Below, piece by piece: positions 7,268 through 13,743 of a stretch of DNA of 25,465 bases. The notes under the pieces are model-generated. The model saw only the letters and a list, made by a program, of their open reading frames with translations. It was not told the origin of the DNA and did not search any database. This DNA is from a virus. Each line of letters opens with the position of its first letter. The stretch's first letter is position 1. A program made the position numbers and the translations under genes. The stretch is taken from the IMG/VR virus record IMGVR_UViG_3300012936_000151, positions 1 through 25,465 of that record, one strand, 5' to 3'.

Positions 7268-7316
7268 TTGCATCGTATACCCCCCCCTCCCTATATTCGC
7301 AGTATGCGAGATGCAA
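7268..7316 (+). promoter_or_regulatory. RNA hairpin with poly-C loop
   Basis: TTGCATC (7268-7274) pairs with GATGCAA (7310-7316), then GTATAC (7275-7280) pairs with GTATGC (7302-7307) after a 2-base bulge, giving 13 bp in all with one G-U. The 21-base loop opens with C-rich CCCCCCCTCCC, which could pair with the GGCGGAGGAG downstream at 7346. The position in the leader of the operon starting at 7479 suggests regulation at the RNA level. Confidence 0.45.
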
Positions 7317-7345
7317 AGAGAACAACAATTTTTATTATCATACAA

Positions 7346-7434
7346 GGCGGAGGAGTTTCCCCTTTTAACTATCATAAAACTTATAGTAGTGAACACTATA
7401 AGTACTCCTTTCGTGTCAACGAAACTTCTCCGTC
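7346..7434 (+). ncRNA. Candidate structured leader RNA (nested hairpins)
   Basis: GGCGGAGGAGTTTC (7346-7359) pairs with GAAACTTCTCCGTC (7421-7434) over 14 continuous bp with two G-U pairs. Inside, CTTATAGT (7380-7387) pairs with ACTATAAG (7395-7402), 7-base loop. A T-rich stretch (GTTCTTTTC) follows, then 40 bases to the ATG at 7479. It may be an attenuator, a cis-regulatory leader or a small RNA. The family is not recognised. Confidence 0.45.
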
Positions 7435-7478
7435 GTTCTTTTCAAAAAATTTATTAACAATAAACGAGGGATATAATA

Positions 7479-7724
7479 ATGAGTGCTAAGATAGAAGAAT
7501 GTTGTATTTGTCACGAAGATATTGATATTCAATATGTCGAAGAGATAAATAATAAGAATGGTACAAGGCACAAGAAAGTTTTTTGGTCTATGGGCCACAA
7601 TGCTGAACCTATTAAACAAGGTCGCTGTTGTACTGTATGTAATACTACTGTTGTGATTCCACAACGTATATTAATGATTCAACAAGGTCAAGACTTTAGG
7701 GAGGCAATTAATGATAACGATTAA
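7479..7724 (+). CDS. Small zinc-binding phage protein, 81 aa
   Basis: Two Cys pairs are visible: ECCICHED (C8/C9, C11) and GRCCTVCN (C50/C51, C54), enough for one zinc site of treble-clef or ribbon type. Between them is GHNAEPIKQG, and after them VVIPQRI. The GHNA.P...GRCC..CN..V...R pattern is common in small early proteins of marine phages; the function is not established. First gene of the rightward early operon, after a structured leader, with AGGG about 9 bases before the ATG. It overlaps the next gene by 14 bases. Confidence 0.75.
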   Translation: MSAKIEECCICHEDIDIQYVEEINNKNGTRHKKVFWSMGHNAEPIKQGRCCTVCNTTVVIPQRILMIQQGQDFREAINDND

Positions 7725-7998
7725 AAATTGCGATACCGAAAAACTAAAAAGTATTCTGATGAACACTAAAGGTAAACTGTTTTCAGTTTCCTTTATCAAG
7801 AAGAATGGCGAACTACGCAATATGGTAGCTCGCTTAGATGTAAAATCTAGAGCTAAGAACCCTAATAAGAAATCAACCGTTGAGCAAAAACATTTGCCTT
7901 ACGTGTTAGTATTTGATTTCCATAAGGACTCTTACAAGACAGTTAATTATAACACAATACAAAATATAAAGTTTCAAAACACTTTATATGAAAGGTAG
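7711..7998 (+). CDS. SH3-like beta-barrel phage protein, 95 aa
   Basis: The sequence has the pattern of a small beta-barrel protein common in phages: GKLFSVSFIKKNGELRNMVARLDVK (about 21-45), then a strand with LPYVLVFDFHK and KTVNYNTIQNIKF (about 81-93). Relatives are annotated only as SH3-fold or hypothetical. GGAGG lies 6-7 bases upstream of the ATG, inside the end of the previous gene. Likely an early nucleic-acid or protein-binding accessory factor. Confidence 0.65.
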   Translation: MITIKNCDTEKLKSILMNTKGKLFSVSFIKKNGELRNMVARLDVKSRAKNPNKKSTVEQKHLPYVLVFDFHKDSYKTVNYNTIQNIKFQNTLYER

Positions 7999-11707: not shown

Positions 11708-11715
11708 CCCCCCCC
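11708..11715 (+). repeat. Poly-C tract (8 C)
   Basis: A run of eight C sits between a ribosome binding site (AAAGGA, 11701-11706) and the ATG at 11717. Runs of eight and nine C also occur on the same strand at 7280-7287 and 13735-13743. Slippage here would change only spacing, not the reading frame. Confidence 0.7.
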
Positions 11716-13734: not shown

Positions 13735-13743
13735 CCCCCCCCC
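13735..13743 (+). repeat. Poly-C tract (9 C)
   Basis: Nine C in a row, 16 bases before the SSB-like gene's ATG. A G-rich stretch (AGGAGGCGGGGG) lies about 90 bases upstream, near 13641-13652, and could pair with it in the RNA. A third member of the poly-C set at 7280 and 11708. Confidence 0.65.

Follow-up and report, generated by a model that had tools for sequence, protein, structure and literature searches.

Two stretches with strong folding potential, at 7268–7316 and 7346–7434, stand at the start of the early operon in a 25,465-base viral contig from IMG/VR (hereafter the window). A first-pass annotation of the DNA had read them as the two halves of an RNA switch. The question raised by this locus is whether they control the early genes as alternative RNA folds or whether one of them is a DNA element.

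Setting of the locus and its relatives

In the window, the gene for a class-II glutamine amidotransferase-like protein has its 3' end at 6568 and is followed by a terminator-like hairpin at 6600–6630. About 0.7 kb without convincing genes separates it from the rightward early operon, which contains DnaD-like, RusA-like, exonuclease and single-strand-binding genes. A nucleotide search of phage records returned no matches to the window. The first early gene found no relatives in IMG/VR, and the 600-aa gene found none in IMG/VR or in phage records. Family contigs, in which the gene order is the same, were reached through the exonuclease, DnaD-like and WYL_2-like genes. When the DnaD-like gene was searched against GTDB genomes for a host, only distant matches were obtained. 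The second ordinary early gene (7711–7998) matches Pfam WYL_2, which has an Sm-like SH3 fold, and is present family-wide; its product is a candidate nucleic-acid-binding regulator.

A promoter layout with a C-tract in the spacer

The first foldable stretch contains, on the + strand, a −35-like box TTGCAT (7268–7273), a C8 tract (7280–7287) and a −10-like box TATATT (7292–7297), with an 18-nt spacer between the two boxes. The full run in the window is C8-T-C3 (7280–7291), and an ATG at 7304 stands 6 nt after the −10-like box. A plain consensus scan called no promoter at this site, where the −35-like box shares only 3 of 6 positions with TTGACA; scored against shuffled flanks, the site reached p 0.04. 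As the window promoter is weak by consensus, the case for it rests on the family.

The same layout is kept in at least 12 lineages. It consists of TTGACW, 3–6 nt, a run of C6–C10, 3–6 nt, TANNNT (in most relatives) and, usually about 6 nt later, a start codon, which lies 34–39 nt after the −35. TTGCAT, which aligns with TTGACW of the relatives, replaces it in the window and in L002. The C-run is present in 12 of 12 aligned lineages, and a run of 6–10 C was found in every inspected member that holds the region from the amidotransferase to the early genes. Flanking sequence is otherwise diverged among the twelve lineages, the invariant positions of their alignment being six columns of C and the final T of the −10. 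Promoter scores exceeded those of shuffled flanks at p<0.05 in 9 of the 12; the combined p of ~3e-9 is rough, since the lineages share ancestry. In L042 and L046, the −10 chosen by hand differs from that of the scorer.

The C-run is longer where the remainder of the −35-to-start distance is shorter, and vice versa (r −0.84, permutation p 2e-4). The compensation is seen directly in L006, where C8 is followed by TATA, and in L028, where C6 is followed by TATATA. Sampled spacers were 16–18 nt throughout. Judged by sequence, a sigma70-type layout with −35 and −10 boxes 16–18 nt apart is thus found across the aligned family, the window's own −35 being weak.

We consider it probable that 7268–7303 is the main early promoter of this uncultured phage, with a predicted leaderless start at about 7304. 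The hairpin and C-rich loop described earlier most likely represent promoter DNA for the early genes, not an RNA element. A host sigma70-type RNA polymerase would read 7268–7303, with the C-tract occupying the middle of the promoter spacer. Transcription would begin at or beside the A of ATG 7304, so that the mRNA would be leaderless and its first ORF would run into the next gene. The −10 and the start codon are 5–7 nt apart in most lineages but 9 nt apart in L006, L028 and L057, which means that not every lineage would be strictly leaderless.

A scan of all IMG/VR for the complete layout returned 13 stretches with C8, 7 of them in the family, and 4 with G8 as a control; outside the family, 6 stretches versus 4 is near background. 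Three unrelated viral contigs carry TTGACA, C9–C11, a good −10 and, 6 nt further on, an ATG (L112:1553; L111:1309, − strand; L107:674). L112 looks like a microvirus, and its promoter-like site precedes a replication gene.

The gap upstream of the promoter has features of its own. Between 6900 and 7110, the window contains a perfect DnaA box (TTATCCACA) about 320 nt 5' of the C-run, a palindrome CCGACTNNTCNGTCGG about 260 nt 5' of it and TTCTATGACGAC about 190 nt 5' of it. The DnaA box and the GTCGTCA motif are also found at similar places in L002, L040 and L042, and because of this recurrence the gap before the early operon may double as a replication origin.

Hairpin 1, stem 2 and the leader ORF

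An inverted repeat does exist around the promoter at 7268–7316 (hairpin 1; arms ~7269–7280 and 7303–7315), although the clean 13-bp hairpin originally proposed was found to be 12 predicted pairs with a 2-nt bulge. It folds at −10.9 kcal/mol (z −3.35), and 2 of 200 shuffles were as good. This repeat occurs in the window only: the equivalent 49 nt of six relatives did not fold in this way (0 to −4.1 kcal/mol, z −0.95 to +0.9), and hairpin 1 was rejected as a conserved RNA.

Stem 2 was as described, with 14 contiguous pairs on the + strand (7346–7359 with 7421–7434) and a 61-nt loop; an inner 9-bp hairpin lies at 7379–7403. Its helix score was reached by none of 200 dinucleotide shuffles, and the 221-nt region folds at z −4.5. 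Within the first 150 nt, a stem of exactly 14 pairs was found in the window, L002 and L042 (0/200 shuffles each), beginning at +43 in the window and L002. The three stems are unrelated in sequence and cannot be aligned. L040 has 8 pairs plus 3, which is not significant alone, and no significant stem was found in L003, L006, L043, L046, L049, L052 or L057. Folding of the whole leader was significant only in the window (z −3.4); z was about −1.7 in L002 and L040 and −0.4 in L042. When A-C was allowed instead of G-U, the best stems dropped to 7–10 bp. The stems need G-U, and the pairing therefore points to RNA of the + strand; as the stem search itself allowed G-U, this dependence is supporting evidence only. 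We conclude that stem 2 probably exists as an RNA stem, located within the very short first gene. The idea of RNA structure ahead of the early genes thus stands for stem 2, which precedes the first ordinary early gene, and falls for hairpin 1.

As a terminator or intrinsic attenuator, stem 2 was rejected. It is followed by no T-run, and no terminator-like site was found in 7346–7450; the attenuator suggested earlier is not borne out in its intrinsic form. No terminator was found in the sequence after the stems of the relatives. Rfam gave no match at the gathering score or at E up to 1, in agreement with the first reading, which recognised no known riboswitch.

According to the first-pass annotation, hairpin 1 and stem 2 would be mutually exclusive folds; in such a switch, a transcript arriving from upstream would carry both, and their exchange would attenuate the early operon. 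In the window, both structures are stable when folded, and stem 2 can pair through its left arm with the C-run (−10.3 kcal/mol duplex). But the differing arms of three relatives can also form duplexes with the C-run (−6.2 to −12.8 kcal/mol), because all contain Gs. The main part of the two-state switch fails, as the C-run lies in a conserved promoter spacer and the relatives are without hairpin 1. With the start predicted at about 7304, the early transcript would include neither the left arm of hairpin 1 nor its C-loop. We found no sign of the upstream transcript that the switch needs, and two terminator-like sites lie between, ahead of the promoter; stem 2 has no terminator tail. A switch between the hairpin 1 loop and stem 2 is therefore unlikely, and attenuation of an upstream transcript by the two folds is very improbable.

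The predicted leaderless leader ORF of 61 codons occupies 7304–7489 on the + strand, and its end, with the stop, overlaps the next gene, which starts at 7479. Leader ORFs in the same place, also ending over the next start, were found in L002 (47 codons), L040 (50), L042 (34) and L046. No homologue of the window leader peptide was found. The leader peptides of the window, L002, L040 and L042 have no mutual similarity; a relationship is visible between the peptides of L043 and L046. Stem 2 would act later than the promoter, in the mRNA and within the leader ORF, where it would be melted by ribosomes translating that ORF. Its probable function is to couple or tune translation of the gene that overlaps the ORF, or else to protect the transcript or have it processed.

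C-tracts at other early genes and comparison with known systems

Across 31 family contigs (380 kb, with some close relatives among them), runs of C7 or longer numbered 43 on the early-coding strand, while the opposite strand had 0; 2.7 were expected, both strands together. In sister phages with ~50% exonuclease identity, the counts were 2 and 2 in 769 kb. A C8 tract (11708–11715, + strand) lies between the Shine-Dalgarno sequence and the ATG of the gene after the DnaD-like gene, and it is in the same place in L002, L042, L004 and L052. It was rejected as a promoter for lack of any promoter signal. Since this run is outside any promoter, the tract is not simply part of one. A C9 tract (13735–13743, + strand) stands upstream of ssb, after a conserved GGTTGGCTACT block, and recurs in the same place in many relatives; in several members it is plausibly part of a promoter. 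At L049:9556 and L056:1113, the GGTTGGCTACT-C7 block, whose usual place is before ssb, instead precedes a different, hairpin-containing stretch, as though it could move as a module.

Because the tract is pure, confined to a single strand and recurrent before other early genes, its most likely role, which we favour tentatively, is that of an element recognised in one orientation by a factor from phage or host. A wider version of this reading, which we regard as somewhat unlikely, is that a phage-encoded factor recognises C7–C10 on the coding strand both in promoter spacers and ahead of start codons; the reader is perhaps the conserved WYL_2-like protein or a Cys-rich early protein. Were that so, and the chance seems rather small, this promoter class would be one not described before.

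The tract might instead be a slippage-prone spacer, with replication slippage altering its length and so tuning the promoter in the manner of Neisseria opc and porA; a tract between a Shine-Dalgarno sequence and an ATG would tune translation. The recurrent C-runs all sit at spacing-critical places, known phase-variable promoters share the design, and lengths differ between related contigs (C9 in L021 and L040 versus C10 in L025, which are 96% identical; C8 in L043 versus C7 in L044 and L045), although sequencing error can also give such homopolymer differences. However, G-tracts would do equally well, yet the count is 43 C to 0 G. The sampled spacers also hold 16–18 nt by compensation, and a phage whose early promoter switched off would lose its infection. 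We consider slippage a doubtful explanation. That the C-tract sets only the DNA geometry of the promoter spacer, with no specific reader, agrees with a spacer length that is constant while the number of Cs varies, but the one-strand bias and the C-runs that lie outside promoters, after a Shine-Dalgarno sequence, speak against it; it appears unlikely.

The supposed RNA switch is replaced by a testable promoter rule, in which a single motif locates the early promoter and the first gene for a clade of uncultured phages. The rule also raises the question of why an unstable C-run is retained at the very point where spacing is most critical. Recognition of the tract by a factor would represent a new control of early transcription; if slippage acts, it would be phase variation in a phage early promoter.

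In leader-peptide attenuators, the first ordinary gene is preceded by a short ORF and an RNA stem. The phage leader resembles them in having a short ORF with an RNA stem and a stop that overlaps the next start; it differs from them in that it has no intrinsic terminator, no regulatory codon run was noticed and its peptides are not conserved. The cI gene of phage lambda, transcribed from PRM, is a leaderless gene. As in lambda, the start codon in the window lies ~6 nt after the −10 and the mRNA would begin with AUG; unlike cI, the ORF is the first of an early operon, a C-tract fills the spacer and the 5' end is a predicted one.

No phage C-tract early promoter was found among the open-access papers searched, a set with few subscription journals. 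The closest design is in Neisseria, where poly-C or poly-G lies between the −10 and −35 of opc, porA and fetA and the tract length changes expression (PMC2791445, PMC3447861). The predicted phage promoters, too, have a homopolymeric tract between the −10 and −35; the phage clade has, in addition, C-runs outside promoters. Unlike the Neisseria tracts, those described here belong to phage early promoters, are clade-wide and are always C on the coding strand, with a spacing of ~16–18 nt kept.
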